From positions 1 to 33,693 of the forward strand of contig JAAYJV010000039.1 of the NCBI GenBank assembly GCA_012522755.1: a stretch of 33,693 nt of DNA. The letters are read 5' to 3'. How positions within the stretch are numbered: position 1 is the stretch's first letter; each line of letters opens with the position of its first letter. Under the pieces are notes generated by a model. It was given only the letters and a program-made list of their open reading frames with translations, was not told the DNA's origin and did not search any database. This document shows positions 4,695 to 29,853 of this stretch, piece after piece. A program made the position numbers and the translations under genes. The DNA is from Candidatus Hydrogenedens sp. (GTDB taxonomy: Bacteria; Hydrogenedentota; Hydrogenedentia; Hydrogenedentales; CAITNO01).

Positions 4695-7600
4695 TTAAAT
4701 GGCCTGACGGATGATCAGTTCCGGTTCCTTCAAGATTCCGGCCGGATAGAGATTATAAGCATCCATGAAATCTTTGCCCGTTGTAACCCAGCTTCCCGGA
4801 CCATAGCCACCGGCTCTCAAGGTCACCTGATGCAAGGGTCCGAAACTGTTGCGACGGGTCAGGATTACGGTCAAGGGCAATATTTCGTCTGCAGCCGGTG
4901 CCTCCGTCAATTTGGCTTCATGGGGTGCCCAGGGCAGCAAGGCCTCTTCATCTCCCGGACTGATCTTCGCACAGGCTGCTTCAAAAGCGGGCAGGTGGAA
5001 GAAGACGGTCTCATCGGAATCTTTTGCAACATCGGGAAGTTCCACCAGATATTCTATAGCACCTGAATAGAAAGGCAGGCCCTGATCAGCTATATCAGCA
5101 AACTCCAGCGTCTCGGGAAGTTCTGTCAAAATACGGCGGATCCCGTCGAGGCGTACACCGAATTCGCCCAGCAGATACAAGGCTTCCAGATTCACCTCTT
5201 CATGAAAGTCCACCGATATCTCAATGAGATTCTCACCTGGCTTCAGCATGGACGGAGGCAGCACGAGTTTTCTCAGACAGGTATCCACCCACCAACCGGC
5301 ATCTTCTGCAGTTGACAGAGATTCGCCGTTGACCAGCACGGAAAACATGCCCGGCTGTTCCATGACCAGATAAAGCGCTTCGGGGATTGTCTCCACTTCA
5401 AAATCAAAGCGGATTTTCACAGCACCCCGGATCACTTTTTCCTGCTTTCCTGCAAACCAGGGTTGTAACATTTCGCCACCGCGACGGGCCAGTCCGTAGC
5501 GATCACGGATATACTGATCAATTTTCAATATTTCCATGGGTGTACCATAGCCCACATCGTCAATATTGCAGGCTGCACGGTCGAGGACACAGACATTGGG
5601 CTCACTCAATCTGTAGGGAGCCGGACCTTTCAAAGAAATTCGTCGCACTTCCTTCCAGCTTTCTTTCACCGGAAGAGAAGGATCGGCTTCCGGTCTGATG
5701 ACATACAGCTTTTCGCCGCCAGCCGGGAAATCAACAGAGAAGTGCAGCAAGCCCTCTTCATTGCGGGTGGGCACTGTCATCCGCCCGCCGGTGAGGCTGT
5801 CCCATTCTTCCACGACTCCCTCCCCCTTCACTGTCATGACAAATCCCGGACGGGCTTCTTCCCTGTTGGTATTGAGCGCCATGACATAGCGCAAGGCTCC
5901 GTCCAGACGGCTTTGCGTGAAAATCTGGCGTGTCCAGTCTTCATGCTCCTCATGGGTAATGCTTACAGCCGGTTGAATCCGGTCGGTGCAGGCCTGGAGC
6001 AGCTCTTCGCGCTCGAAGGGTACCTGCAGAGATTTCCCGGCCAGTACAGCAGCACGATCAGAGCGATCGCCATTCACATGAGCAGGAGCCTCGTCTGCAA
6101 AAAGCAGTGAACCGCCCGCCGCCTGAAATGCTTCAAGCATGTCCAGTGTTGTGGCCCGGATGCTTTCCAGACCGGAAACAATAACGAGGTCATAATTTCC
6201 CTTGCCGACCTGCAAAACAGGTCCATCTTTTTGCACCACGTTTCCATGGCGCATGAGGATATCTTCATCTCCAATATCAAAGTCCAGCTGCGCTTCAAAA
6301 AGCCAGGTAAGCAGCTGCTGGTATTTGCGGTCGAGAGCCACAACCTCCGGTGCCGTGGCGGAGAGCCAGCTCGCCCAGCCGGTATGAATCTGTGCCCAGG
6401 CGCTTTCCACTGGGTTCAGCACGAGAATATGACAGTCCGGCTTTCCCCGGGACATGAGCGTGTTGATCCGGGAAAAATAATTTTCCACATGTTTGTATTC
6501 GGGATACCAGGCACTCTGATAAAAAATACTGGCCGGGAAATCCCGTTTCGCTTCTCCTTCCATGGTGTACCAGGACAGATGATGACAGCGCAGATTGATG
6601 CCGAAAAGGCTCTGCCAGTCCCCTACTGCTTTGTGAGAGGCGAAATTGAACTGCCAGCCGGTGCATCCGTAGAGTTCCGACAACATCCATTTTTTGTCCA
6701 GCTGCCGGGCTGTGGAGGCCAGTTGCTTCACGATCCAGTAGTTGCGGTTGCCCTCTGTCAGCACGTCTACACCGGGGTAATCCATGTATTCATAAAAACG
6801 CATCATGGAACCGCAGGGAACAGCCTGGGCGCCCAGAGTGTCCTCGTGGAGAGCGTGACCTGTCAGGATCATATCGTGTTCCTGACACCATTCGAGCATG
6901 GGCTTCGCAAAGTTGTCCAGAAAGAGCTGTTGTATGAGTTCCATGTACTCCCATTTCACCCGGACGATACGCTCGCCCTCCGGTCGCAGGAAGAGCGCCG
7001 GAAGATGATCGAGCAGGTCATAGCCATAAGCATTTGAAAAAGCTTCCGGCAGGGCCCTTGTCCAGGGCGTGCATCTTTCCGAATCAGTCAAGCCACCCTG
7101 GTCGACTTTGTGACACATGACCATGCCCCGGTGAGGCTCATCTGTAAAAATACCTTTGATGGAGGTGCCGATTCGATCACCGCAATGTTCTTTATAAGCC
7201 TCATGGGTCAATGCGATGAAATGTTCCGTCGCCTCTTTGCTCATCGTGTCCAGATAGGTATTGCCATTGTAAAAAGAACTGCTGTCCATGTATTTGACAG
7301 AAAAGGCGAGGACCGTATTTGTTGTTCCCGAATGTTTTTGTCCTTTATCCAGACGCTGCAAATTCCTATAGTTCAATCCATCGAGATCACAGCTGAAAGC
7401 GGCTATAAAACGATCTTCCCACTCAAATTCGGAGGCATCGAAGATGTCCATGAGCAGATATTTCATCTGATATTCTGGGTTCTCTGTGGCCTTCCCTCCC
7501 GCCGATCCACTGGGCCAGCGGTCTTCGTCATAGAGCCAGGCCTCCAGATTGCGCTTTTCAGCTTCGTCAGCACAGACATTGATCAGATCAAACCATTCTT

Positions 7601-7883
7601 CACCCAGATATTCCGTAACAAGACCTGTCCGGGAGTGCATGAAAAAACCGCCGAAGCCCATCTCTTCCAGCACATCAATCTGGCGAAGCAGTTCTTCTTT
7701 TTCCAGCTTGCCATTCCACGACCAGAAGGGTTTCCCCTTATATGCGTTGCTTGGCTCCTGGAAAGACAGCCACGCTGCTTCGTAACGGGAGACGTCTTCA
7801 TTGGCAAAACACACTGGCGCCAAAGCCAGGATCAGGAGAAAAGAGAGAGAAGAAGAAAAAAAGGTACAGAATGAAAATTTCAT
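4695..7883 (-). CDS. Secreted GH106-like glycoside hydrolase (putative alpha-L-rhamnosidase)
   Basis: This is a large 1062-residue exported enzyme. The signal peptide is residues 1-27 (ending VCFA-NE). The catalytic region opens with KPFWSWNGKL at 51-60, then EMGFGGFFMHSRTG at 74-87 and WLYDEDRWPSGSAGG at 116-130, which are hallmarks of GH106 alpha-L-rhamnosidases and relatives. Conserved acidic residues that could be catalytic include Glu249 (FTDEP), Glu347 (HALHED) and Glu403 (LSELYG). Residues from about 480 contain a flavodoxin-like/beta-galactosidase-type middle domain. The C-terminal 300 residues look like a beta-sandwich sugar-binding domain. The start has AGGA 5 nt upstream. The lactonase follows after 27 bp, suggesting an operon. 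Expected role: release of rhamnose or a similar deoxysugar from polysaccharide side chains. The family call is by recognised motifs; the substrate is inferred. Confidence 0.82.
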   Translation of the reverse strand: MKFSFCTFFSSSLSFLLILALAPVCFANEDVSRYEAAWLSFQEPSNAYKGKPFWSWNGKLEKEELLRQIDVLEEMGFGGFFMHSRTGLVTEYLGEEWFDLINVCADEAEKRNLEAWLYDEDRWPSGSAGGKATENPEYQMKYLLMDIFDASEFEWEDRFIAAFSCDLDGLNYRNLQRLDKGQKHSGTTNTVLAFSVKYMDSSSFYNGNTYLDTMSKEATEHFIALTHEAYKEHCGDRIGTSIKGIFTDEPHRGMVMCHKVDQGGLTDSERCTPWTRALPEAFSNAYGYDLLDHLPALFLRPEGERIVRVKWEYMELIQQLFLDNFAKPMLEWCQEHDMILTGHALHEDTLGAQAVPCGSMMRFYEYMDYPGVDVLTEGNRNYWIVKQLASTARQLDKKWMLSELYGCTGWQFNFASHKAVGDWQSLFGINLRCHHLSWYTMEGEAKRDFPASIFYQSAWYPEYKHVENYFSRINTLMSRGKPDCHILVLNPVESAWAQIHTGWASWLSATAPEVVALDRKYQQLLTWLFEAQLDFDIGDEDILMRHGNVVQKDGPVLQVGKGNYDLVIVSGLESIRATTLDMLEAFQAAGGSLLFADEAPAHVNGDRSDRAAVLAGKSLQVPFEREELLQACTDRIQPAVSITHEEHEDWTRQIFTQSRLDGALRYVMALNTNREEARPGFVMTVKGEGVVEEWDSLTGGRMTVPTRNEEGLLHFSVDFPAGGEKLYVIRPEADPSLPVKESWKEVRRISLKGPAPYRLSEPNVCVLDRAACNIDDVGYGTPMEILKIDQYIRDRYGLARRGGEMLQPWFAGKQEKVIRGAVKIRFDFEVETIPEALYLVMEQPGMFSVLVNGESLSTAEDAGWWVDTCLRKLVLPPSMLKPGENLIEISVDFHEEVNLEALYLLGEFGVRLDGIRRILTELPETLEFADIADQGLPFYSGAIEYLVELPDVAKDSDETVFFHLPAFEAACAKISPGDEEALLPWAPHEAKLTEAPAADEILPLTVILTRRNSFGPLHQVTLRAGGYGPGSWVTTGKDFMDAYNLYPAGILKEPELIIRQAI

Positions 7884-8171: not shown

Positions 8172-9446
8172 TCATCCCAGTGCGTAAGGCCGTGTTTTTG
8201 TCCATTCCGCCACTTTGGCCGGAAGCCACTGAGCCAGTTCGGGTTCAAGATAAAAGACCGGTGTCAGGAGCGTGTCTTCCACTGATACGAGCCCTCTTTC
8301 CACAGCAGCCGCCACCACTTCCGTATCGGGATAAATACGGATTCCAACGGTCACCCGCAAAGAATCGAGATTCAGTGAGTCGGCGAAGTCAAGACTTTCT
8401 TTCACAGTCTCCCTGGTTTCTCCCGGACCGCCGAGGAGCAGAAAGCCCATACATTGGATGGCTTTGTTCTGAAAGCAGGCACAAGCCGCCCGGACATCGT
8501 CGAGCGTAAAATGCTTGTTCAACACACGAAGCATTTTTTCTGAACCGCTTTCAAAGCCAATGCTCACGCGCACACATCCTGATTCCGCCATAAGGTCAAC
8601 CAGTTCCGCATCCATCTGTCCGGGATACACAATGGCGGACCAGGTACAGCCCAGTTTCTGGCTGATCATTTCACGACAGAGTGCTTTGGCATAGGGCACA
8701 GGCAGATTGAAGGTATTATCCACGAAATAGAATTGTGTATAGCCCACTTCGACCCACTGTTTCAACCAGTCCACCACGGCTTCGGGCGAACGTTCTCTGA
8801 TGGCTGTTCCCTCAATTTTGGGCGTTGAGCAATAGGAACAGGCCAGGGGACATCCCCGCCGGGTTTGTACGGGAATCCAGGGATCAGGATTCTTTTTCAC
8901 ATCTTCCAAGAGCAATGCCAGATCAGGAAGAGGAAAGTTGTCGAGTTCTTTCATGAAGCTTTTGGGGGACTCGCCTTCCCGATCAGCGCGGTGCAGTCCG
9001 GGAACTCCTTCCAGACTCTTTCCTGTTTCCAGAGCTTCCAGAAGAGCGGGAAAAGCCCCTTCCCCTTCTCCGGCAATTCCCAGATCCGCTCCCAGGAAGG
9101 TCAATACGGCATGGGGAAAAATGGTATAGCCCGCTCCTCCCAGAACAATCGGCACCTGTGTCTTCTCGCGGCAAAGATCGATGATCACCTTCACCTTTGT
9201 CAGAAGAAAACGGGTGGATTCCATGCGTTGATCATCAATATTTCGAACGGAAATGCCGATACATCCGGGCTGTTCTTTTTCCAGGGTCTCCTGAAGTGCT
9301 GTTTTGAGATCGGCCTGAAACATGAGATCCAGAAAAAGGACTTCATGACCATGTGCTTTGATTGATTCGGCCACACTGGCCAGGCCGAGAGGGATGGTGG
9401 CCATATCAATCTGCTCTGTATTGGCTGCAATCAACAGCACTTTCAT
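8172..9446 (-). CDS. Cobalamin-binding-domain radical SAM protein
   Basis: This 424-residue protein has a B12-binding-like Rossmann domain at about 1-140 (PLGLASVAESIKAHGHEV, VLGGAGYTIFP, GIAGEGEGAFPALLEAL). A radical SAM domain follows with the 4Fe-4S cysteines in RGCPLACSYC (Cys199, Cys203, Cys206). Later motifs such as IGFESGSEKMLRVLNK and FLLLGGPGETRETV are typical of the class B (B12) radical SAM group, which includes methyltransferases and ring-forming enzymes. No DxHxxG cobalamin motif is seen, which is usual in this group. The start has GGAG 8 nt upstream. The gene lies 166 bp behind the Tat-exported oxidoreductase. No partner or precursor peptide is evident nearby, so the substrate is unknown. 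Confidence 0.88.
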   Translation of the reverse strand: MKVLLIAANTEQIDMATIPLGLASVAESIKAHGHEVLFLDLMFQADLKTALQETLEKEQPGCIGISVRNIDDQRMESTRFLLTKVKVIIDLCREKTQVPIVLGGAGYTIFPHAVLTFLGADLGIAGEGEGAFPALLEALETGKSLEGVPGLHRADREGESPKSFMKELDNFPLPDLALLLEDVKKNPDPWIPVQTRRGCPLACSYCSTPKIEGTAIRERSPEAVVDWLKQWVEVGYTQFYFVDNTFNLPVPYAKALCREMISQKLGCTWSAIVYPGQMDAELVDLMAESGCVRVSIGFESGSEKMLRVLNKHFTLDDVRAACACFQNKAIQCMGFLLLGGPGETRETVKESLDFADSLNLDSLRVTVGIRIYPDTEVVAAAVERGLVSVEDTLLTPVFYLEPELAQWLPAKVAEWTKTRPYALG

Positions 9447-9612: not shown

Positions 9613-10851
9613 TCAGGCGTCCAGAATCTCCCGGCTTGCCCGATTGTATACCTGACGTCGGCCCGTGTCCGCTGCGCGCATGGCCATGATCACGGCGACG
9701 GCATGCTGATAACCGGCCTCTATGCTGGCGTTGGGCGTTCTTCTTTCGCGTACACACTGGAACCAGTCTTCAATATGATCCGGCGCTTCGGCATCATCAA
9801 TGCGCACCCGTTCTTTGGGAAGAGCTGATTCGCTGAAGCCTCCTGTACCGGACACATAGACATTGCTCCAGTCCTGAAGGTCCATGACTCCCTGATCTCC
9901 CATGATCAGGAAAGTACTTCCGCCGCTGTTGCCGAAATAAGTGGAATAATGGGCGGAAAAGCCTTCCTCATATTCCCAGATGACATTGACGTGGTCGGGA
10001 CAATCGAAAGCGTATTCGTCTTTCCATATCTGAGTGGACTGCATGGATACGCAGGCACGGGGAATACGTGCGCCTGTGATGGAATGCACCAGATCAATAT
10101 AGTGGGCCCCGAGACTGGGAACAGCACCGTCGGAAAATTCTCTGAAGCCATACCATCCGCTGAAGAGAACGGGATCAAAGGGGCGCATGGGACAATGACC
10201 CAGAAACTCGGCCCAGTCCACATCTTCTTCCCTCACGTTATCTTTCAGATAGCCATACCAATAAGGACGTGAAGCGTTGCGGTGCTGCTCGATACGCCCG
10301 ACTTTTCCCAAAGCGCCGGTTTTATAATATGCACGAGCGCCGAGCATGGCGGGATAGCTGCGCAGCTGTGTGCCCACCTGACAGACAATACCGCTTGCCC
10401 GGACAGCGTCATAGGCTTCACGGAGAGGCGCCATCTCTTTGGCCAGAGGCTTTTCACAGTAGACATCTTTTTTCGCTTCGGCCACGGCTTTGAGGTGGGT
10501 GGTATGCAGATGCTCGGGGCTGGCGATGACAACCATATCCACGTTGGCTTCATCGAGAAGCTGCCTGTAGCTGACGAACTGCTGAGGTGCATTTCCGAAC
10601 CAGCCTTCGCACATGGCGGCCGCTTCTTCCCTTGCCACTTTCCAGGGATCGGCGACAGCTGTCACTTCCATATTGTATTTTTTGGCGTGATTGTTGATGG
10701 AGGGCAAAATGGCACCCTTCATCCTGCTGCCGCAGCCTATGAGACCTATACTGAGGCGATCATTGGCTCCGACGGAGCGTGTGTACCCCATGGCGGTCAA
10801 AGTGGCCGCCGCACCGGCGGCTGTCTTCAAAAATTCACGTCGCGTACCCAT
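9613..10851 (-). CDS. Tat-exported Gfo/Idh/MocA-family oxidoreductase
   Basis: This is an NAD(P)-dependent sugar or inositol dehydrogenase-like protein. From the chosen ATG it is 412 residues. A twin-arginine leader (TRREFLKTAAGAAATL, residues 3-18) indicates folded export. The Rossmann fold follows with SIGLIGCGSRMKG at about 34-45, and the family motif CEKPLAKE carries the conserved Lys134. A GAHYIDLVHSITG helix supplies the usual C-terminal domain Asp/His pair. A start three codons upstream at 10860 has its purine tract touching the ATG. The ATG at 10851 has GAGAGG 9 nt upstream and is preferred. Exported members of this family are common in saccharolytic PVC and Bacteroidota genomes, and some are glycoside hydrolases of the GH109 type, so a glycosidase role using bound NAD is an alternative. 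Confidence 0.88.
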   Translation of the reverse strand: MGTRREFLKTAAGAAATLTAMGYTRSVGANDRLSIGLIGCGSRMKGAILPSINNHAKKYNMEVTAVADPWKVAREEAAAMCEGWFGNAPQQFVSYRQLLDEANVDMVVIASPEHLHTTHLKAVAEAKKDVYCEKPLAKEMAPLREAYDAVRASGIVCQVGTQLRSYPAMLGARAYYKTGALGKVGRIEQHRNASRPYWYGYLKDNVREEDVDWAEFLGHCPMRPFDPVLFSGWYGFREFSDGAVPSLGAHYIDLVHSITGARIPRACVSMQSTQIWKDEYAFDCPDHVNVIWEYEEGFSAHYSTYFGNSGGSTFLIMGDQGVMDLQDWSNVYVSGTGGFSESALPKERVRIDDAEAPDHIEDWFQCVRERRTPNASIEAGYQHAVAVIMAMRAADTGRRQVYNRASREILDA

Positions 10852-11006
10852 CTGTATCATCCTCTCTATTCAATCTGAAAGTTGTTCCGATTCATCCGAT
10901 AAAACCAAAGGTCATTATGCGCCACGGATACAACAAATGCAAATCTCTTCCTCTGCAGACATAGCGATGGTGGGGTTCAAAATGAAAATTCCTGTCTGAA
11001 AAGGGA

Positions 11007-12428
11007 TCAGCTGAAGAGACCTTTGAAAGTTCTGCGAACAAAAGTAGGGATATACAAAGGCAGGAGGTGGCGCTGGGGAAAGTCGCGCAATAAACGATAA
11101 ATACGATTGGGCTTGAAGAAGAAAGCACGCGATGCCTTTCTCTGCAGATAAAACAATCTTTCATCTGACACAGTAGACATATTCATTTCCAGTGAACAGA
11201 AGTCCATATCATTATAGTTGAGGCCGCCCAAACGTTCGGGCATATGCTCCAAGGCATATTCATACAAAACTGTTCCCGGAAAAGGAGTTACTGTGAAGAT
11301 AGAAGCCGTATGGAGTCGTGATTCCGTAGCAACACGTATGGTTTCCAACATCTCTTCTTCCGTCTCCGTGGGAAAACCGAGCATCATAAAACCATTGGCA
11401 AAGACTCCTCTTTCTGTCGCATACTCTATTGCTTTGAGAAAACGCGGTATGTTCAGACGCTTCCCGGTAAACTCCTGGATGCGCGGAGATCCTGACTCCA
11501 AAGCAAAACTGCAAAAATACATGCCAGCTGTCGCCAATGCGTCCACAGCTTCTTCGTCCAACAGATCTGCACGAAGAGCATTGGGAAAAACAATCTTTAT
11601 AGGTCCATTTCGTTTAAGCAGCGAATCGGTACAGTCAAGAAGACGTTGTTTATTGAGATTGAAAGAATCATCAACAAACTCAACATCATTAATACCATAT
11701 GTTTTTTTGTAGTAGCATATTTCGTCCACAATCCTCTCAGCGGAATGAGCGCGAAAAGAGCGACCGAAAATATTATGGCACCACATGCATGTATATGGGC
11801 AGCCGCGGCTGCTCAAAAGAGATGCATACCGCCTGCGGGGAACTGGCGGCATGGACTGCGTTTTCCAGTACTTCGACAGATCAATAAGATCGTAGGCGGC
11901 CATAGGCAGATCATCCAGATTTTCGAACATGGGCGCACGTCCGGGATTGGTGATGATCTCACCTTCTTTATCGCGCCACATGAGTCCGGGAATATGGCTG
12001 AGGTCGCTGCCATCCAAAAGGGCCTGGACAATCATTTCCATACTCAATTCACCTTCACCGGAAACAGCGGCATCGGCATCGGGTGAGTGTTCGAAAGCCG
12101 GTTTCCCGAAGGCTGAAATATGAGGTCCGCCAAGAATGATAAATGTATCCGGCTTGGCCTGTCGCACTGCACGGGCAATAGCCGGCACGCCATGGGCCGT
12201 GGGAGTCATGCTGCCCAGCCCGACAATATCAGCGTCAAACTCAATGGCTCTACGGGCCACTTCATCGTGAGACCAGCCTTCGAGACGCTGGTTGATCAAC
12301 TGGATTTCGACCGGGAATTTTGTACGCAGATAAGCCGCGATGTACATAATCCCCAAAGGTGGAGTTGCCAGAGAATACACGCGAGAACGAAGGCCAACAT
12401 TCACCAGAAATATGCGTAACTTTTTCAT
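11007..12428 (-). CDS. B12-binding radical SAM protein (HpnJ/BchE-like class)
   Basis: This 473-residue protein starts with a cobalamin-binding-like domain (LATPPLGIMYIAAYLRT at 20-36, then IILGGPHISAFG, then AVSGEGE). A radical SAM domain follows with the cluster cysteines in SRGCPYTCMWC (Cys210, Cys214, Cys217). Motifs FALESGSPRIQEFTGK and NGFMMLGFPTETEEEM agree with the B12-dependent group. The ATG at 12428 has AGGAGGA 6 nt upstream (12435-12441), a near-perfect Shine-Dalgarno. This is preferred to an upstream in-frame codon at 12470. The ATG overlaps the stop of a small upstream ORF as ATGA, a sign of translational coupling. The gene shares domain order with the radical SAM gene at 8172-9446 but the two are only distantly similar. 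The product modified is unknown. Confidence 0.88.
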   Translation of the reverse strand: MKKLRIFLVNVGLRSRVYSLATPPLGIMYIAAYLRTKFPVEIQLINQRLEGWSHDEVARRAIEFDADIVGLGSMTPTAHGVPAIARAVRQAKPDTFIILGGPHISAFGKPAFEHSPDADAAVSGEGELSMEMIVQALLDGSDLSHIPGLMWRDKEGEIITNPGRAPMFENLDDLPMAAYDLIDLSKYWKTQSMPPVPRRRYASLLSSRGCPYTCMWCHNIFGRSFRAHSAERIVDEICYYKKTYGINDVEFVDDSFNLNKQRLLDCTDSLLKRNGPIKIVFPNALRADLLDEEAVDALATAGMYFCSFALESGSPRIQEFTGKRLNIPRFLKAIEYATERGVFANGFMMLGFPTETEEEMLETIRVATESRLHTASIFTVTPFPGTVLYEYALEHMPERLGGLNYNDMDFCSLEMNMSTVSDERLFYLQRKASRAFFFKPNRIYRLLRDFPQRHLLPLYIPTFVRRTFKGLFS

Positions 12429-12658
12429 GATATATCCTCCTGCATTACTGAACTCACCAGCGTCACACAAGCGTTCAGTCTGCGCAGGTTGGTGCTTGGC
12501 TCGTGCACTTCAAAACAAAAAGCTTTTACGATGTAACAGAAGTCCCTGTAAAATTCTACCATAGTGTTGTAACTCATTAGAAATATCCCCTTTTGCTGGA
12601 TCTCGGAAAGGAACTCCCGTAAAGGAAGCAGATTTTCACAAATGATACAGGGGCACAT
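12425..12658 (-). CDS. Small cysteine-rich ORF coupled to the radical SAM gene (tentative)
   Basis: The ORF gives 77 residues from the ATG at 12658; a TTG at 12703 would add 15. It begins MCPCIICENLLPLREF, with a CxCxxC cluster, and contains further cysteines (FCYIVKAFCFEVHE, NACVTLV). No family is recognised. Its TGA overlaps the ATG of the radical SAM gene in the sequence ATGA, and the strong Shine-Dalgarno of that gene lies inside this ORF. Both features are typical of translationally coupled genes. The ribosome-binding site of the small ORF itself is weak (TAGGTTCA before ATG). It could be a small partner or a peptide substrate of the radical SAM enzyme, or a chance frame in the leader. 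Coding status is not proven. Confidence 0.42.
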   Translation of the reverse strand: MCPCIICENLLPLREFLSEIQQKGIFLMSYNTMVEFYRDFCYIVKAFCFEVHEPSTNLRRLNACVTLVSSVMQEDIS

Positions 12659-12895: not shown

Positions 12896-15800
12896 TTACT
12901 GTAAAATAAACCAGTCAGGAAATAATTCATGAAGCTCCTGCAACTGATCTTCGGGTATCGCATCGTCATGTTTTTCAACAAGCGATAGAATCGTTTGCCT
13001 CAGCCCTGAAACATCAGGATTTTGCAGAAACAGAATTTTATAGTTTTCCAGAGCTTCAGCATACAAGCCGTTATTTAATTGTTCAACAGCCAGACATTGT
13101 CTGGGCCAGAGTGCATCGGGATCAGCCTTCACGGATTTTGTAAAATATCCAAGTGTTTCACGCCCATCGCCCTTTGCCCGGGCAAGTGTTCCCAATTCAA
13201 AATAGGCCAACCCATCAAAACCGCCTATGGCAAGCGCCTGGTTAAAACATTCTTCCGCTTCCTTCAATAATTGTTGGTCTACAAGCAATTGTCCGATGGA
13301 GATATACTCGTAAGTTATCAGTTTTGGCGGGTGACATCTCTCCGGATTTTGCTGCTCCAGTAATGTCAATGCAGTTTTATAGTCTCCGGAAAGACGCAAA
13401 CAGCGTATAGCCGCCACAAGCGCATCACAACCATGGGCCTCCGAGTCTTTTAAAACCAGATAGATCCGGGTGGCGTCGGTGAAAAATCCAGCTTCTTCCA
13501 GAGTGCCTCCATAGCGACGGGTTATGTCCCAGCTGTGAGGATTGGACTCATGAATGTCTTTCCAATAGTCCAGGCGATATTGTTCATCGTCCAGCTCATT
13601 GAGAACAATATCGGTATTGACGAGAACATTTGAAAACTGAGCGTCTTTTTTAAGTACTTCAGCATAGATTGTCAATGCCTCTTTGAAACGGAACTGTCGA
13701 GCATAGACTTCGCCTGTTCTGGCTGCTGTATCCAGCGAAAAAGAACCCAGCATTGAAGCACCTTGAAAGGCGGCCAGTGCAGCTTCGTTATTGTCCAGTT
13801 CATACCAGTCATTCCCGACAGCTTCCAGTTTTTGAACGGCATATGCTGAAAGATCAGGATTGGCAGAAACCAGCTCAAGCCAATTTGTCACATAGGCATG
13901 AACGTCCGCATATTTTTTGAGAAAATAATCATAACGATCATAAAAGAAGCATTCAAAAGGAAAACGCCCGATCAGTTCTCTGTATTTATTGGCTGTCCGT
14001 TCCGGGTTACCGGTCAAACAATAAGACAATTCAGCAGTGAGTGCCGGAAGTCTTTTTGTAATGGGCATCCAGGCTTCTGCTTTTCTGTTGTTTTTCTGAG
14101 CTGTAAAGAGAGCGTCAATCAATACAGCACCATCAGTCAATTCAGAAGCCAGGCGCACTCTCTCGTGGCCGGGAAGTATTTTAATCTTTGGACCACTTTC
14201 AGTGAAGACAGCTGTTTCTTCCAGATATCTTTGCAGATCCACAAATAACGGATAAGGAAAGGAAAATAAACGATCGGCCGCGGCTTTGTCTGGAAGAGCT
14301 TCTCCAGGTTCACATAACGCTCTGGAAAATGCTTCCGAATAGGATGCAATTACGGGATACAACGAAAAGGCCTGGGAAAAATAGGCACGGGCCCGATCAG
14401 TTTCACCTGCAAGAGCCAGCAAGGTACCCATATAGTAATAGCCCAAACCAAAATAGGGGTGAGATGACAGCAGATATTCAGCAAATGCGCCCGCAAGACG
14501 ATATTCCTTATTTCGTAAAAACGAAAAGCCCACCTCAAAGTTTCCAATTGTCAAAAAAAGAGGCCAGGCACTTGTTGATCGCTGAAAACCATAGATCAAC
14601 TGTTGTTTCTCTTCCTCGTTGTCAACATGAACGCCTAAATCATCAAAAAAACTGCTATAGTCCGCTATATCCAGTAATTGCGGAATCGGGACGGGAATGC
14701 GCGGCTCTTGTCCCTGAGTGCAGGTCGCTTTAAGAACAGTCAGATGGGTGCTTCCCGGAAAATAGGTAGCTTCCACATGCAAGCCGCATTCCTCCAAAGA
14801 AGCTTCTAGTATTCTCAGGGGATTTTTTGGCATACCGCCGAAATAGTACAAAAAAACCGGCTCCGTCAATATCCACACGGCCGGCTGAAGATCATCAGTA
14901 TGATCTTGATTTTGCAAAAAAAGTGCCGCTTGCGCGCAAACATCGCCTAATGAAGTTGCATTCACTTTTTTAACCTGGAAATCATTCAGATAATGGTCAA
15001 TCCGGGAAAAGGGTGCCAAAGACCATTCGTCAATGATAAGGTCCTGAAGGCCGCTGTTTTGTCGGATATAGGCTGCTGCTTCGTTCCATGCCGGGCGGGT
15101 TCTATAAGGAAGAAAGATGAGGCACTGGTAACCATACAATAAAATAACCAGCAATATAGAGCTTTTATAGATCCACTTTTTGTTGAAGCAACTCGCTGCG
15201 AAACCTATGGCAAGGTAAAGGGCGGCCATATTATAGGCATTATAGACCGGATTGAAAGTTGGTCGTCCTGTTACAGCTTGAACCGTTCCCAGCACCAAAG
15301 GAGAGACACAAAACAGAGAGATTATCAACATGAATTTTGAAAGAAGATTTCTCTCAAAATATATTTCTTCTCCAGATTTGTTTATACATGTCAGAGGTTG
15401 ACAACTCACCTTTTTAAACTTATTTTCCAAGAATTGGATTCTGAGGCTGGTTTCAGCACTGTAAAAGACAAAAACCAATAAAGATATCGTGATAAACAGA
15501 AAAATAAGCCCATCCATGAAGGGACGGACTTTGAGAAACAAGAGCAGAGAATCCGGAAGTTCTCCAGTGGGATGGTTGTGCCAGGGAGAAAAGAAGAACC
15601 AGCGCGTATTGATGATGTCCTGTCCCACTGCATTTGTCAGGGCCGTAATGATTTCGGGGGGAGGCGCCACTCTACCCTGTTCTTCAGTAGTATGTGAGAT
15701 ATCGAAAGCAGAGAAGAAGAGAATAGTAACCAGAATCACAGCTGGCAAAGCCCAGAGAATAAAGAAGGAAAAGCCCCGGCGCAAAAGGACATAAATACCT

Positions 15801-16423
15801 TGAGGTATGAGGATAAGTACGGAAAAAAGATGATTGAATAAAAACAACGCAGTTGCACAATAATATAACAGCCACAGACGACTTTTTTTTGTCGGTGACG
15901 AAAGGGCATGCTGTAAGCTCAGAAGCGACAACAGGGCCAGAAAAAACATCAGCCCGTAAGGTCTCAATTCTTGCGCAAACCAAATCTGCGTGGGTGACAA
16001 TGCCAGCAGAAGAGCGCTGATCAGGCCTGCTCGCCGTGAATAAAGAGAAGTTCCCAAAAAGTACATAAGCACTATGGCTGCTGTGCCAAAAGCAACCGGT
16101 AAAAGCCTCAGATACAAGGGATTCATCCCTGTAATTTTCGACCAATAATAAAAGAAAATATAGAAAACCGGGGCGCCTGTGTGCTCTGGCACTATAATTT
16201 TAAACAGGGAAAAAAAATCAGAGACACTGGAAGCTTTGAGCGGCACATAAGACGGGTATTCATCCAACCAGACAGACTGCTCAGAGAGGTGATACAAGCG
16301 AAGGAATAAACCAAGAGCCGTTATAAAGCACAGAGGAAGCAAAACTTTGTTGTCTTTGACAAAGGAAAACACATTGCTTCTCAGAGTATGCAGCTTATGT
16401 AAAAAACCACGAGGATCAGACAA
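12896..16423 (-). CDS. GT39-type membrane glycosyltransferase with TPR tail, copy A
   Basis: This 1175-residue protein is a fusion. Residues about 25-440 are polytopic membrane segments of the GT39/ArnT/PMT type (GT-C fold), which transfer sugars from polyprenyl-phosphate donors outside the membrane. Landmarks are GLFLRLYHL then the external-loop DE motif SVWLDE (Asp54, Glu55), and WFAQELRPYGLMFFLALLSL. The segment after the last membrane helix (RPAWNEAAAYIRQN) matches the post-membrane region of GT39 enzymes and is expected outside the cytoplasm. Residues about 590-1175 contain many TPR-like helical pairs (for example YFNQALAIGGFDGLAYFELG). The start is TTG at 16423 with AGAAAGG 8 nt upstream; no in-frame ATG is available near it. 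It is paralogous over its whole length to the divergent gene at 16808-20317. Acceptor and sugar are unknown. Confidence 0.8.
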   Translation of the reverse strand: MSDPRGFLHKLHTLRSNVFSFVKDNKVLLPLCFITALGLFLRLYHLSEQSVWLDEYPSYVPLKASSVSDFFSLFKIIVPEHTGAPVFYIFFYYWSKITGMNPLYLRLLPVAFGTAAIVLMYFLGTSLYSRRAGLISALLLALSPTQIWFAQELRPYGLMFFLALLSLLSLQHALSSPTKKSRLWLLYYCATALFLFNHLFSVLILIPQGIYVLLRRGFSFFILWALPAVILVTILFFSAFDISHTTEEQGRVAPPPEIITALTNAVGQDIINTRWFFFSPWHNHPTGELPDSLLLFLKVRPFMDGLIFLFITISLLVFVFYSAETSLRIQFLENKFKKVSCQPLTCINKSGEEIYFERNLLSKFMLIISLFCVSPLVLGTVQAVTGRPTFNPVYNAYNMAALYLAIGFAASCFNKKWIYKSSILLVILLYGYQCLIFLPYRTRPAWNEAAAYIRQNSGLQDLIIDEWSLAPFSRIDHYLNDFQVKKVNATSLGDVCAQAALFLQNQDHTDDLQPAVWILTEPVFLYYFGGMPKNPLRILEASLEECGLHVEATYFPGSTHLTVLKATCTQGQEPRIPVPIPQLLDIADYSSFFDDLGVHVDNEEEKQQLIYGFQRSTSAWPLFLTIGNFEVGFSFLRNKEYRLAGAFAEYLLSSHPYFGLGYYYMGTLLALAGETDRARAYFSQAFSLYPVIASYSEAFSRALCEPGEALPDKAAADRLFSFPYPLFVDLQRYLEETAVFTESGPKIKILPGHERVRLASELTDGAVLIDALFTAQKNNRKAEAWMPITKRLPALTAELSYCLTGNPERTANKYRELIGRFPFECFFYDRYDYFLKKYADVHAYVTNWLELVSANPDLSAYAVQKLEAVGNDWYELDNNEAALAAFQGASMLGSFSLDTAARTGEVYARQFRFKEALTIYAEVLKKDAQFSNVLVNTDIVLNELDDEQYRLDYWKDIHESNPHSWDITRRYGGTLEEAGFFTDATRIYLVLKDSEAHGCDALVAAIRCLRLSGDYKTALTLLEQQNPERCHPPKLITYEYISIGQLLVDQQLLKEAEECFNQALAIGGFDGLAYFELGTLARAKGDGRETLGYFTKSVKADPDALWPRQCLAVEQLNNGLYAEALENYKILFLQNPDVSGLRQTILSLVEKHDDAIPEDQLQELHELFPDWFILQ

Positions 16424-16807
16424 GACAGTTGCCTTTCTGGATAAAAACTCAGTTTAGCACGCAGGAATCGACGGGATCAACACACTTTCTTTTCGCAGCA
16501 GAGATGAGCAGCTATTCAAAATAATTGAGTGTATAGACTAGAAAAAAGACCATCAGACCTTACTTGTCAGTACAAATCATCAAGACATCTAAAGAGAAGT
16601 ACCTGCGGTGCCCCTGCATCATTTTACACCAAAAGACTGCATCTCGTCTCAAATTTCAGTATGGCCAGGAATTCATGACTTCAATATACCTGTATCTGAT
16701 TTCTTGACATTTGCTATAATTTATTATATAAGGGAAAATTTCACACTCCATCCCTTCCGCTAGCCTTGCTGCAACCAGAGACCGACCTAAAAGAAATATA
16801 AGAGACC
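16424..16807. other. Divergent intergenic region between the two GT39-TPR genes
   Basis: No gene is seen in this 384-bp region. It should hold both promoters of the divergent paralogues. A good sigma-70-type promoter faces right at 16704-16732. A weaker candidate faces left, TTGATC (16480-16475 on the minus strand) with TAAACT (16456-16451) at 18-bp spacing. No large palindrome that would suggest a shared operator was found by eye. Confidence 0.5.
16704..16732 (+). promoter_or_regulatory. Sigma-70-type promoter for GT39-TPR copy B
   Basis: TTGACA at 16704-16709 (6 of 6 consensus) is followed after 17 bp by TATAAG at 16727-16732 (5 of 6). Transcription would start near 16739, about 70 nt before the ATG at 16808. 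A TATAAT at 16715-16720 lies too close to the -35 to be its partner. Confidence 0.6.
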
Positions 16808-19800
16808 ATGTTTTATTTTTTTGGCATAAAGAAACAAAAGCTGTCATCTTTATTTTCTTTTGTCAGTACCAACATCCCTTTTTCTGTATGTTGTATTTTT
16901 ATACTGGGCTTTCTTCTTCGCCTCTATCACCTGCCACAACAATCCATATGGTTTGATGAATGGCTTTCTTATTCATCGCTCACCCCCTTGGGATGGAAGC
17001 ATTTTTTGGCGACTTTTCGAATTGCTATTCCTGAACATGCCGCCGCTCCCTCCTATTACATCTTCTTTTATTTCTGGGCACAACTGGTCGGTACCGCTCC
17101 TGTACTCTTACGGCTTTTTCCCGTGGTAACAGGCAGTTTCGCCATTATCTTACTCTATCATCTCACTCTGCGATTCTACTCCCATCGAGCCGGAACAGTC
17201 AGCGCCCTTTTACTGGCTTTGTCACCGTCCCAGATTTGGTTCTCTCAAGAACTGCGCCCTTACGGGTGGATGTTTTTTTTGGCGTTGGCTTCCATCCTGT
17301 CTCTGGAAACAGCCTTATCATCCCCCAAGCGCCCTTCCCTTCGTTGGCTGCTCTATTATTTGATTACGACACTATTCGTTTTCAGCCATCTTTTTGCCCT
17401 TTTGGCTCTGGTCCCGCAAGGTATTTACGTCTTGTTCCGGCGGGGAATACGTGCATGTATTCTCTGGGCTATTCCATGCCTTATTCTTGTCGCGTTGTTA
17501 AGTTTTTCCGTTCTGTACGCATCTCACGTATCCATTGAGAGCAGAGTCACAGCTCCAGATCGTGATGCTGTACGGTATCTGATATACCCGATTTCAAAAG
17601 ATATCGTAACGCTACACAGGGATCTTTCACCGCCCTGGCTATACAGCCCTCCCGAAGAAATCTCCGGTTCCTTAAAAGCTCTTTTGAAGTTTCGTCCTGT
17701 TTTTGACACAACCACTGTTTTACTTCTCTTGTCTTTGCTGGCTCTTTTCATCTTCAAACACTTGCGCCGTTGTATAAAAGAAGCCGCAGAGCCACTATCA
17801 GAGACAGGTTCATATTCGAACACAAAGTCAACAAAAAAGACTGACACCGACAATTCTTTATCTTCTCAGTTTCTTTATTCCAGATTTTTATTTATCCTGT
17901 GTTTGATTATTTCCGGTCCGATGATGCTGGCTCTGCTGGAAGTAATAACAAAACAAATAGTTATGGGAAGCAGCTATACCGCTTACAACATGATTGGTCT
18001 GTATCTGGCGGCCGGTTTTGTCATCAGCCAATTCCGTCATCGTTGGCTTTATACTGTGTCACTGTTACTGATTATTTTTTTCTACGGTTACCAATGTCTT
18101 ATTTTTCTTCCTCACAGAACACACCCGGAATGGCGAGGAGCAGTAGACTATATTGCCGATCATTGCAAGCCTCATGATCTTGTTATTGATGAGTGTGTCG
18201 GTTATCCTATGTCTCGTACAATTCTTTTTGGCAACACAGCACCTGTCCAAACAGCACAGGCTTCTTCCTATGGAGACACATGCACACAAGCAGTTCATTA
18301 TTTTAAGAGCACGCAGAAAGAAGCACTATCGGATGCATCCGTATGGATTTTGACTGAGCCCGTTTTCAGTATGCACAAAGCTGATCCCGATCATGCTCCT
18401 CTTCAGGTATTTAAGGCTGCACTGGAAGAACATGGTCTTCATGTAACCATCAAGTACTTTCCAGGCAGTATACCTCTGAGTTTACTGAAAGTAAATTCAG
18501 CCCCTGACACGACACCATCGCTTCCAGAACCATTTTCGCAGGCCCTGGATGTATTGGACTTTGAGTTATTTCTTTCAGACTTGACCATTATCCCTCAAAC
18601 CCGGTCAGAAGAGGATCAACTTAAAGGAGCTTTCCAACGTTCTGTTGGCCGTTGGCCTTCAATTTTTCTTAACTATAATCCACAACTGGGTTTTTCCTTT
18701 TTGCGCAATAAGGAATACCGTCTAGCCGCTGCATTCGGCTCATATCTTCTTTCTCGGTACCCCTATTACAATATGAGTTATTATTTCATGGGCACCCTTC
18801 TGGCTGTGGCTGGAGAAAGAGAGCGAGCTGCAACCTACTTTCAACATGCTTTCTCACTGAATCCTCATATGGCATTTTATGCCGCTGCCTATTCCGAGGC
18901 CTTATGCAATTCTGGGGGTGAACAGCCTTCTCCGGCTCTATCCGAAAAACTCTTGTCTTTCCCCTTGACCTTCTTTGTGGATCTGGACCGCTTCTTACAG
19001 GAAAACACTATTGCTGATCCGGAACAGGAAGATAATACCCGGAAAATATTGCCACAGGAGATTCGCGACGAGTTGCGTGCCCACCTGCCTGACGGAGCGG
19101 CCTTGTCTGAAACTGTTTTTGCGGCTCAAAATTCTCCTGCAGACTTGAACAGCTGGCTTCCCATCACAAAAAGAATGCCGGCCTTGTTGTGTGAGCTTCG
19201 CCGGATCTTTACTGGAAAGGACGAGTCTGCAGCGGCCTGGTACCGGAAACATATTGAAAAGTATCCTTTCGAAAAGATTCTCTATGAACGTTTTGATGCT
19301 TATCTGAAAAAATCCGCTTTGCCGGATGACTATAAACGACAATGGCTGGAACTGGTGGAAAAAAATCCTGATCTTGCTTTTTATGCTTCCCAACGCCTGG
19401 CGGAGCGGGGTGATAGCTACTGGTCTGCGGGGAAACTCAAAAAGGCTCAAGGTCTTTATGAAGCAGCGCTTTCTCTGAATCCCCACAGGATTGACACGGC
19501 CGCCAAACTTGCAGCACGCTATATAACTCTGGAGCGTTTCGAAGATGCGCTGCCACTGCTGAGCGAAGTGCTTCAGCAGGATTTATATTTTCCCGATGCT
19601 TTGGCGCAGGCCAATGAGACTCTGCAAGTGCTGGACAACCCTGAGCGGGATATAGCATTCTGGCAAGGAGTGCATGCGGCTCGGAGTGGAGATTGGAATG
19701 TTATTTTCAGTCTGGGCACTGCTCTTGAAAAGGCGAATCGCTTTTTGGAAGGAGCGGATATCTTTTTATCACTGGATAGTGCAGATGCAAACATCTGCCA

Positions 19801-20317
19801 TGCCCGTCTTGCCGCTGTTCGCTGTCTGCGTCTGGCAAAAGAATATTCAAAAGCGCAGACCTTGCTGGATACCCTGTCTCCCGATCACTGTGATCCGCCA
19901 CGGCTAATCAGTTATGAATATGTAGAAACGGGCCAGGTATTTTTTGCAGAAGGTGATTTTGATGCTTCAGCCGCTTGTTTCAACCGGGCTCTGGATACAG
20001 GCGGATTTGACAGCCTGGCCAATTTTGGTCTCTACGAAATATCCCTTGTCTTGGATGACCGAAGAGCAGCCCTGGACTATTTACAAAAATCCGTGGATGC
20101 CGATACAGACAATCTATGGCACAGGCAGATGCTTGCTCAAGAACAGTTGAAAGAAGGACTTTGGGACAGGGCTCTGGATAATATCGAGGTGCTTCTGAAA
20201 GCGAAGCCTCAGGATCCCGGTCTGCACCATCAGCTTCTTTCTCTTCTTGATCAGGATATGGATTCAGTAGTGACGGAACGTCTCCACAGCCTGTTAAAGA
20301 GCTTTTCCGAGCCATGA
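16808..20317 (+). CDS. GT39-type membrane glycosyltransferase with TPR tail, copy B
   Basis: This 1169-residue protein has the same design as copy A. A multi-pass GT-C membrane domain spans residues about 22-440, with FLLRLYHL, the external-loop motif SIWFDE (Asp50, Glu51), WFSQELRPYGWMFFLALASI and a final helix ending GYQCLIFLPHRT. An expected extracytoplasmic stretch (EWRGAVDYIADHC) follows, then a long TPR-like tail (for example AAAWYRKHIEKYPFEKILYERF, split here: AAAWYRKHIEK, YPFEKILYERF). GFSFLRNKEYRLA at about 627-639 is identical in both copies. The ATG has only a weak AAGAGA purine tract, but a strong promoter lies upstream. Probable role: transfer of a sugar from a lipid carrier to an exported protein or glycan, with the TPR tail binding the acceptor. 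That role is inference from architecture. Confidence 0.8.
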   Translation: MFYFFGIKKQKLSSLFSFVSTNIPFSVCCIFILGFLLRLYHLPQQSIWFDEWLSYSSLTPLGWKHFLATFRIAIPEHAAAPSYYIFFYFWAQLVGTAPVLLRLFPVVTGSFAIILLYHLTLRFYSHRAGTVSALLLALSPSQIWFSQELRPYGWMFFLALASILSLETALSSPKRPSLRWLLYYLITTLFVFSHLFALLALVPQGIYVLFRRGIRACILWAIPCLILVALLSFSVLYASHVSIESRVTAPDRDAVRYLIYPISKDIVTLHRDLSPPWLYSPPEEISGSLKALLKFRPVFDTTTVLLLLSLLALFIFKHLRRCIKEAAEPLSETGSYSNTKSTKKTDTDNSLSSQFLYSRFLFILCLIISGPMMLALLEVITKQIVMGSSYTAYNMIGLYLAAGFVISQFRHRWLYTVSLLLIIFFYGYQCLIFLPHRTHPEWRGAVDYIADHCKPHDLVIDECVGYPMSRTILFGNTAPVQTAQASSYGDTCTQAVHYFKSTQKEALSDASVWILTEPVFSMHKADPDHAPLQVFKAALEEHGLHVTIKYFPGSIPLSLLKVNSAPDTTPSLPEPFSQALDVLDFELFLSDLTIIPQTRSEEDQLKGAFQRSVGRWPSIFLNYNPQLGFSFLRNKEYRLAAAFGSYLLSRYPYYNMSYYFMGTLLAVAGERERAATYFQHAFSLNPHMAFYAAAYSEALCNSGGEQPSPALSEKLLSFPLTFFVDLDRFLQENTIADPEQEDNTRKILPQEIRDELRAHLPDGAALSETVFAAQNSPADLNSWLPITKRMPALLCELRRIFTGKDESAAAWYRKHIEKYPFEKILYERFDAYLKKSALPDDYKRQWLELVEKNPDLAFYASQRLAERGDSYWSAGKLKKAQGLYEAALSLNPHRIDTAAKLAARYITLERFEDALPLLSEVLQQDLYFPDALAQANETLQVLDNPERDIAFWQGVHAARSGDWNVIFSLGTALEKANRFLEGADIFLSLDSADANICHARLAAVRCLRLAKEYSKAQTLLDTLSPDHCDPPRLISYEYVETGQVFFAEGDFDASAACFNRALDTGGFDSLANFGLYEISLVLDDRRAALDYLQKSVDADTDNLWHRQMLAQEQLKEGLWDRALDNIEVLLKAKPQDPGLHHQLLSLLDQDMDSVVTERLHSLLKSFSEP

Positions 20318-22926: not shown

Positions 22927-25900
22927 TTATTCACCATAGAGGGCAAATGTATCCGCTTCCACATGCAATTGGAGAACACCCTGTTCTACGCTAAAAGCCT
23001 GTTCTGTCCGGGTACCGTCTGTTTTCTCCCGAAGCATGCGCTTGGGCACAGCAACAGTAAAGGGCAGCTTCTTCAGGTCAATGAAAGCCGTAAAGGCGGC
23101 GTTCTCCGGCAGGGGCATCAGTACAAGGCTGTTCTCCTCTTTTGTCAGGCGAAATGCGCCATCGGTTACGATGCCATCAAAGTTCATCCTCTTTTTCTCC
23201 AGATTGAACCTCGAAAAAATGGGGTTGATTTTCACAGAAGCGGGAGTATAGGTCAGGGCTGTTATTTCATCGTCTTCGCCTTCACAACGCAGTGTACCCA
23301 GGAAAAAGGATTTCTCTTCGAGGGTACTGTTCAATATTGTGCAGCGTTGTAATCCCTCTACAAAAATTCCCGCTCGGATCTTGAATTCATCACCGGGCCG
23401 GCTGAAGTCAGGCAGGGTGCGACTCGCAGAGGTCACAAACGGCTCATCCGCCTTGCCACTACCGATGAAAAAGGAGTGATCGGCCTGGAAGGCAATTGAG
23501 TCGTCCTCATTGAGAAAGTGGACAAACACCTTCAGGCCCCGGGTCAACGGTCCGTGAGGCTTCCAGTGCAGGCTCAATTCAAAGTACTTCTCCTTTTCCA
23601 AAGTCACTGTTGATGACGCAAGTTCAACAGGCTCATAGGCGATCTGGTCCGTTCGGGCATTGACATAGAGTGCTTCGGGGGAGCGGCTCCATTCAACGAG
23701 GACACCTTCCCGACGTTCAATAGCGCAGGCGCTATCCCCCGCTTCACTGTAAAAGCCCATGGGAGGAAGAATCCGCCCGAACACAGACCAGTCCTTGTCC
23801 TGCTGTCTGTTAACCCACACCTGCGCACCGTTTTCATAGCCCACCTGCTGGGTGTGTATGTTGTCATTGATAAAGGCATGGTCAGCAAGAGCCACACGGG
23901 CAATACGAGTCATAAAATCGTTTGAAAGCCAATATTTCCGAACGGTATCACGACTGAAAGGCTGTGTGGTCATGGCGGGGTGGCCCGTGAGCATTTCCGT
24001 TGCCATATAATCGTCACTGAAAATTCCCGCCAGTTCCGATGGTTCTCCGGCTTTGTACCGGGGATCATAGCCGGCTCCATGATAAATAAAGCGGTCATGA
24101 CAGGCCATGTCGCTCCAGGGGATCCGTTCCGCATCTTCACATGCAATGGGCCAGGTGAAGCCCTGATCAGGATGGGAAGGAGGGCTGACATCCACCCGCA
24201 AATGATTTGCCTGGGCTCCATCAACGCTTCCTATGAGCTGATCATGGCCACTTTCCGAAATCATGGGTGCATTACCGCCCAGGGTATCCCTGATCCAATT
24301 AAAAGAATCACCCCAGATTTCACGGCAAAGCATGCGGTCTTCCAACTGTCCATCGCTGGTCCACGAATCACAGGGCATCACGCTTGCCCACACATCAATG
24401 AAAAAGGCGCTGGGTGCGATATTTTCCCGGATCCACTGCACATTTCTTTCCAGGAAAGGCCGCATGGCCATGGGCCGCCAGCGAAAGGCCTGAGACCCAC
24501 GCCCTTTGTTGAGCCAGGCCCAAAAGGGTTCCCTGTTTTTATGGAAAGCAATATGATCATAGCTGAACTGATCCGCATCGGGATAAAAGTCGATATAGTT
24601 GTCATGGGGTGCGAAGAGGACGTCATGATCATGACAGATGGCGACCAGTTCCAGAAATTCCTGAAAAGTCCCCCATCTGGTATTGGGCGGTGTGATGTCC
24701 GGCAGACGATAATCATAGCCATGGCGTTGCCAGTTGTGCCAGAGGACCACACTGTTGGTCAATCCATATCGAAAGGACTGCTTCAAATCTTCCGTTGCGC
24801 GTTTGATATCCCCTCTCCACAGATCAAAGCCGTAACGTCCGGCCAATTGCGGAACACCGGGCCCGGCCTGCAAGCCGTTGATATCTCTCCAGACCTTGAC
24901 AGCTGACCATACATTTGGTGCCGGAATAAAATGAAAATCAGCCGCGATGCCCGCCTGCAAGCTGTAGATTTTGTCAACAGGCGTTACCACAAAACGTGAA
25001 GGCGGTGCTTTCAGAGCCTGCACCACAGACAGACCTGTCGGAAAATCAAAGCCCACAAAAGAAGTGGCCAGCTGATGCGCATCCGCCGCCAGAGTGAAGG
25101 CTTGCGGATCACAAATGACATTGCCCATGCCCGCATAGATCCTGTCGGCCCGGGCACTCCAGGGGCCTGTTTGTACAGATTCCAGGCAGGGAATCAACCA
25201 GGGCTGAGAGGCCGGCGCATTTTCCAGACGCAGTACGACACACAGGGCTTTGTCATCAATCACAGAAAGATCAGCAACCAGATCGTAGTTTCCTGAAGGA
25301 CTTTCAAAAGCATGACGGATCAGAAAACCCTTCTGAGTGGGCTCTGTCTCCACGAAAACGAGCTCCGTGACTCCTTGCGCCTTTTGTAATTCTTCGCCGA
25401 ATACATGCACGGAAAAACCCTGAAAGCTGAGGAGGCCCTCATCTCCTTCAAAAAACACGGTGCCATCGAGAAGGCCCCGGTGACCGAGAACAAAAGAAAC
25501 ATCATAGTTTATCCCGTCAATGGAGAGCTGTCCTATCTCTTGCTTTTCATGTTTTGGCGGATCGACCACGTTCTTCTCTTTCCCTACGTGGATTTGCGGG
25601 GCTCCCCACAAAGCTCTGTCGCAGGTAGTGTCCCAGGCCGGACCCGGATGGGTTTCCAGTTGCAAGAGTATGGTCTGACCTGCATAGGCATCAAGAGAAC
25701 AACGGTGATATTGCCAGCTTTTATCGTCTGTATGACTTTCGAAAAGAATTTCGCCCAAAGCTTCCTCAGGGGCCTCTTCGGGCAATACACGGAGTCGGAA
25801 GGTCACCCCATCACTGGGCGGCTCCAACCCTTCTTTGTGCGGAGCGATAGCCACAGCAGTTGAGAACCAGATTTCTTCTTCTTCGGGAAGAGATACAAAG

Positions 25901-26577: not shown

Positions 26578-26801
26578 GCTTCGTCCTTTCATGATTTCCT
26601 GAATTGTAACAACAGGTACCGCCTTTGTGCCACTTCAGGGGAAGAAGCCATGACGAGTTGGCTGAAGCCTCTTGTATCCCAAGACACTGGTGTCCAAAAT
26701 GCGAAGGCCCATGTAAGACCGTTCTACAGCCACACAATGCCATGAAGACAAGCTTTTTCGGGTGCTCAGCACATAGAAAAAGGTATCAGCACATGGAATG
26801 A

Positions 26802-29811: not shown

Positions 29812-29853
29812 CTTCAGTTTTCTGTCTGCTTTTTTTCCTCTTTGGGCGGACGG
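29790..29853. terminator. Inverted repeat spanning two convergent stop codons
   Basis: CCGTCCGCGCAAAG (29790-29803) pairs with CTTTGGGCGGACGG (29840-29853): 13 base pairs with one G-G mismatch. The 36-nt loop contains both stop codons and a run of seven T. The arms lie within the last codons of mutS and of the convergent glycosidase gene. It could act as a bidirectional transcription barrier, although the long loop is not typical of an intrinsic terminator. Confidence 0.35.

Follow-up and report, generated by a model that had tools for sequence, protein, structure and literature searches.

We found that a divergent gene pair in a Candidatus Hydrogenedentota genome encodes two paralogous membrane proteins in which a GT-C glycosyltransferase core, very probably acting on the outer face of the membrane, is joined to a long TPR tail, and that relatives of these genes repeatedly adjoin genes for B12-binding radical-SAM enzymes. 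On balance, we lean towards reading the pair as periplasm-facing, polyprenyl-phosphate-sugar-dependent glycosyltransferases, with a TPR tail that binds an acceptor or partner, acting together with a modifying B12 radical-SAM enzyme. The window, by which we mean the whole 33,693-nt stretch analysed, spans one whole contig of a draft metagenome-assembled genome (MAG) of 4.0 Mb. All of the data come from MAG contigs, none of them chromosome-level, and many loci are broken by contig ends. The features of interest are the following:

8172..9446, minus strand: second B12-binding radical-SAM enzyme, rSAM1 (Pfam; nearest NCBIfam family TIGR04072, 299.8 bits, under the cut-off of 360)
9613..10860, minus strand: GFO/IDH/MocA sugar oxidoreductase, between rSAM1 and rSAM2 (Pfam), tied to the pair by position only
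11007..12470, minus strand: B12-binding radical-SAM enzyme rSAM2 (Pfam B12-binding and Radical_SAM domains both present; cluster motif CxxxCxxC present as CPYTCMWC; co-location)
12896..16423, minus strand: GT-C/TPR protein, minus copy, TTG start, 1175 aa (open reading frame; Pfam PMT_2 and TPR; model and Foldseek search of residues 1-575; topology)
16424..16807, no strand: divergent intergenic region, 384 bp (sequence read directly)
16808..20317, plus strand: GT-C/TPR protein, plus copy, ATG start, 1169 aa (open reading frame; Pfam; full-length model; Foldseek)

The original prediction of two head-to-head paralogues of about 1170 residues, 384 bp apart, was borne out: both open reading frames were found, and the two proteins are 42% identical nearly end to end (residues 13-1166, E=5e-292), so that the entire chain has been duplicated, TPR tail included. 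A sigma-70-like sequence, TTGACA-N17-TATAAG, was located by script in a direct reading of the intergenic region at 16704-16732, 75 bp upstream of the ATG of the plus copy; a stricter promoter scan of the region did not list it. Three other genes of the window deserve mention. A 1062-aa GH106-like (alpha-L-rhamnosidase) protein, whose Pfam score is barely above cut-off, lies near the pair at 4695-7883. The 1221-aa protein at 22927-26592 has weak matches to DUF5696 and GH101 (endo-alpha-N-acetylgalactosaminidase), and a putative O-glycan glycosidase here would fit a glycoprotein theme. Finally, a 647-aa protein at 29814-31757 has no Pfam match and is 60.5% identical to a protein at the same place in the sister species.

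To describe the fold, we modelled both copies with AlphaFold, using 24 alignment rows. The full-length model of the plus copy (pLDDT 82.5, pTM 0.74) gave the TPR superhelix of OGT and other TPR proteins as its top Foldseek matches. Since this search listed TPR proteins only, the core was modelled separately as residues 1-575 of the minus copy (pLDDT 85.5, pTM 0.88). All 27 of its PDB matches at E<=1e-3 were GT-C enzymes, among them yeast and human OST, AglB, PglB, ArnT, Pmt4, Pmt1-Pmt2, ALG9, ALG12 and DPY19, with modest TM-scores of about 0.4-0.5. The domain order is the same in both proteins: a core with 11 transmembrane (TM) helices (residues 1-437 in the minus copy, 1-433 in the plus copy), an alpha/beta domain (~440-570 and ~440-565) and a TPR tail (~590-1170 and ~585-1164). 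The alpha/beta domain of ~130 residues, which separates TM11 (~437) from the TPRs (~585), corrects the earlier description of a core and a tail. The tail itself comprises ~580 residues of helical hairpins, and its model (~585 to 1164 in the plus copy) is almost all-helical; in both proteins, Pfam found TPRs from mid-chain onward and a weak PMT_2 match at residues ~81-235. With the N-terminus assigned to the inside, basic residues number 12 in 67 in cytoplasmic loops versus 8 in 135 in outer loops, and 10 in 59 versus 11 in 138. The sequences and models thus predict an 11-TM, N-in topology with the TPR tail outside, which also places the acidic pair, E76 and the QELRPY segment on the extracytoplasmic side.

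Next to this topology stands a set of residues conserved in distant homologues: R38, S46, W48, D50, E51, E76, R102, P140, Q147, E148, R150, Y152, H194 and W442. The acidic pair follows an SxW motif in the first external loop (D50-E51 in the plus copy, D54-E55 in the minus copy), where E76 is conserved alongside it. It persists as D/E-D/E in PMT_2-type relatives and is missing from a second GT-C type of those genomes. A strict script pattern counted it in 19 of 30 sequences; the remaining 11 were judged by eye, and most of those that are PMT_2-type and uncut have it. A GT-C core, an extracytoplasmic TPR-like tail of more than 500 residues and a conserved acidic pair, the features on which the original prediction had staked itself, were therefore all found.

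The same prediction had called the core GT39-type, which holds for the GT-C fold and fails for the family. The best sequence-level family is PMT_2 (PF13231), to which other PMT_2-TPR genes of the same genome also belong; the pair scores around its cut-off of 26.1 bits (22.7 and 21.6 bits in a protein scan, 28.5 and 27.4 in a genome search), and the long tail is limited to one subfamily. The GT39 enzymes PMT and POMT share the GT-C fold and 11 TM helices (Foldseek E=2e-5 to Pmt4), whereas neither protein of the pair has a MIR domain or PF02366 (PMT) detectable by Pfam, and both carry a TPR tail instead. ArnT (5EZM/5F15, GT83) likewise has the GT-C fold, an odd number of TM helices and a periplasmic C-terminal domain (Foldseek E=1e-5), but it acts on lipid A, lacks a TPR tail and shows only ~11% identity in the structural alignment. 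The TPR superhelix of OGT and SPINDLY resembles the tail of the pair; those enzymes, however, are soluble and of the GT-B type, and their catalytic core is unrelated. In the open-licence papers that we searched, we found no characterised GT-C enzyme with a TPR tail from these bacteria, no description of PMT_2-TPR proteins from Hydrogenedentota and no paper linking cobalamin radical-SAM enzymes to GT-C/TPR genes.

We then asked how far the likeness to TMTC proteins, also claimed originally, extends. TMTC proteins have 11 TM helices, an acidic pair in external loop 1 (EL1) and a lumenal TPR region (PMC7801869; PMC6801728), and full-length prokaryotic homologues are already on record (PMC7801869). 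The eukaryotic O-mannosyltransferases TMTC1-4 (CAZy GT105) and these prokaryotic homologues thus share with the pair a GT-C core, 11 TM helices, the EL1 acidic pair and an outer or lumenal TPR tail. In contrast, the pair has DE where TMTC has DD, and adds the alpha/beta domain before the TPRs. A pattern search of both proteins for the TMTC motifs SHKSYRP (EL1), KE(T/Q)xxT (EL3) and DW (EL4), as defined in PMC7801869, found none, and hhalign comparison of the core with bacterial TMTC-like proteins, whose profile held only three sequences, gave a probability of 1.6% (E=0.03). On these two results we rejected the pair as TMTC members. The likeness is therefore one of fold and architecture, which supports the earlier caution that it may be convergent. 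DUF1736 (PF08409) did not match the pair either, which says little because none of 60 relatives holding TMTC-like proteins gave a match above cut-off. TMTC-like GT-C/TPR proteins also occur in the phylum (HDDP in EL1, CKQ in a later loop), a label that rests on motifs and involved no comparison to a eukaryotic TMTC; examples are L133:3261-5528, L126:1683-3674 and L139:2388-3671. These three and L138:3-1064 adjoin close rSAM2 relatives in same-family genomes, and PF08409 detects none of the four.

A profile search of the window's own genome returned 19 PMT_2 matches, and at least seven further proteins join PMT_2 to TPRs (C107, C108, C77, C117 and C29 by Pfam, C7 and C173 by profile hits); in C28, PMT_2 falls under the cut-off. 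The genome search suggested originally thus yielded further copies; as for donor synthases, the 23 GT2 matches could include some and are not specific. Near the 1054-aa GT-C/TPR gene of C107 lie two GFO/IDH/MocA-like genes (L111:9088-11086), compared to one near the window's pair. Homologues were present in 60 of 60 relatives searched, and tandem sets occur elsewhere, for instance three genes on G007:C35. In the tree, the long-tailed form clusters with genes of two genera only (six rows, support 98/96); inside that cluster, both copies and the single gene of a sister species make up a trio at genus level (support 100/100), within which the tree gives no clear branching order. That sister gene, a single copy at the syntenic position, is 49.5% identical to the minus copy and 43% to the plus copy. 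Among named relatives, Candidatus Hydrogenedentes bacterium ADurb.Bin170 comes closest; its contig MWCY01000016.1 shows synteny with the window and keeps the gene order (HTH-cupin 74% identical, AMP-ligase 85%, GH101-like 55%, MutS 84%). Judged by sequence, the pair is a duplication inside one genus within a large paralogous family and is locally not unusual, which weakens the earlier view of it as special. In G016, a GT-C core stops early (L103:4669-5955, 429 aa), and its first residues match the full-length G003 gene L040:5899-9009; it is perhaps a decayed or cut copy.

The strongest contextual clue, missed by the original prediction, is the adjacent B12 radical-SAM genes. Ten loci were picked solely by a strong match to the plus copy, i.e. 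by the glycosyltransferase alone. Of these, 8 have a B12 radical-SAM gene no more than 1.4 kb away from a family member, compared to 0 of 40 control loci (Fisher p=8e-8). The gaps are 425 bp in the window, where rSAM2 is on the strand of the minus copy, 154 bp in G001, 624 and 1369 bp in G007, 757 bp in G008 (a weak match, E=5e-10), about 20 bp in G016 (read across L103/L104), 56 bp in G018, 53 bp in G029 and 72 bp in G034. No radical SAM was seen in the loci of G031 and of G003, the latter of which stops at a contig edge. In the reverse direction, a GT-C gene was detected by profile in 11 of the 40 loci that contain close relatives of rSAM2 versus 1 of 40 controls (p=0.003), and in 15 of 40 when TMTC-like genes (L126, L138, L139) and one contig-truncated copy (L151), all added by eye after viewing the neighbours, were included (p=1e-4); the control regions, hand-picked from the same genomes, total 418 kb versus 526 kb for the rSAM2 loci, and the reverse contrast is therefore somewhat overstated. 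In the other 25 rSAM2 loci, many of which are short contigs, no GT-C gene was seen. YfhO-type neighbours were dropped as evidence, as they are found in control loci too.

The neighbouring radical SAMs are 22-62% identical to rSAM2 and do not form one orthologous group; one group of them also adjoins TMTC-like genes. The window's own genome has seven B12-binding matches, three of which adjoin GT-C/TPR genes, and among its 19 PMT_2 genes a radical-SAM neighbour is known only for the pair and the C173 gene. The glycosyltransferase-adjoining radical SAM of the sister species is 85.5% identical to the one at C173, which also adjoins a GT-C/TPR gene; the two sister species thus have this enzyme (L109:537-1985 and L119:7846-9294) next to different GT-C/TPR neighbours. 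From its position, rSAM2 is a probable functional partner of the glycosyltransferase pair.

What the pair does can be proposed from these data. Both genes would encode inner-membrane GT-C glycosyltransferases with an active site on the outer side, formed by D50/E51 and E76 of the first external loop and the QExRPY segment of the second. GT-C enzymes use polyprenyl-phosphate donors, so the pair may be expected to transfer a sugar from such a carrier to an acceptor. Motifs of GT-C enzymes do not determine the sugar, and for that reason a specificity, though considered, was not assigned. The extracytoplasmic alpha/beta domain and TPR superhelix may hold an acceptor or partner protein at the active site, a role suggested for the tail by analogy with OGT and TMTC. 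The copies, which would have arisen by the within-genus duplication, probably differ in acceptor or partner. As for the linkage, the cytoplasmic B12-dependent radical-SAM enzyme encoded by the adjacent gene may act ahead of the transfer by altering a substrate common to both enzymes, be it the sugar, the lipid carrier or the acceptor. That the acceptor is a protein we consider possible but doubtful.

A more specific and tentative reading is that the two proteins are TMTC-style protein O-glycosyltransferases, whose tails capture exported polypeptides, whose cores add a single sugar to Ser/Thr and whose two copies serve different protein classes. In its GT-C core, 11 TM helices and outward-lying TPR tail, the pair agrees with the TMTC layout (PMC7801869, PMC6801728), the tail resembles the OGT TPR region known to bind polypeptide, and the TMTC-like genes of the phylum adjoin the same radical-SAM group. 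Yet the pair lacks the TMTC motifs, PMT_2-type enzymes include lipid and glycan modifiers too, TPRs can also be scaffolds, and no candidate acceptor protein was found adjoining the pair. Alternatively, the proteins might be surface glycan or glycolipid enzymes, with a lipid-linked oligosaccharide, an envelope lipid or an exopolysaccharide receiving the sugars and a tail that does no more than dock envelope partners; this too strikes us as less than probable. It is consistent with the matches to ArnT and ALG9/ALG12, whose substrates are lipids or lipid-linked glycans, with the sugar oxidoreductase and rhamnosidase-like gene at the locus, with the naming of TIGR04072, the family nearest to rSAM1, for lipid biosynthesis, and with the many family members in each genome. 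However, Pfam counts over 50 flanking proteins showed no common glycan operon, with GT2 in only 2 of the 50 and flippase and polymerase families absent from the 25 commonest, and the window holds no capsule or O-antigen operon. Finally, it is unlikely that the radical-SAM neighbourhood is incidental, the two numerous and often duplicating families merely sharing genomic islands without joint function: tandem arrays are indeed frequent, and gene order near the pair shifts between sister species, the sister's radical SAM having its counterpart on another contig here, but in both species that enzyme still adjoins a GT-C/TPR gene, distances are often below 100 bp, and none of the control loci holds a radical SAM.

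Returning to the favoured reading, glycosyltransfer coupled to a radical-SAM step, a far-reaching and quite improbable extension would be a Hydrogenedentota extracytoplasmic glycosylation system in which the B12 radical SAM makes an unusual (e.g. C-methylated or deoxygenated) sugar or carrier, TPR-tailed GT-Cs of more than one family, TMTC-like ones included, glycosylate exported proteins, and paralogues read different acceptors. TPR-tailed GT-C enzymes are abundant in these poorly studied bacteria. Two distinct GT-C lineages with TPR tails and a common B12 radical-SAM neighbour provide a way of testing what these enzymes act on, and of testing for repeated origins of the TMTC layout.
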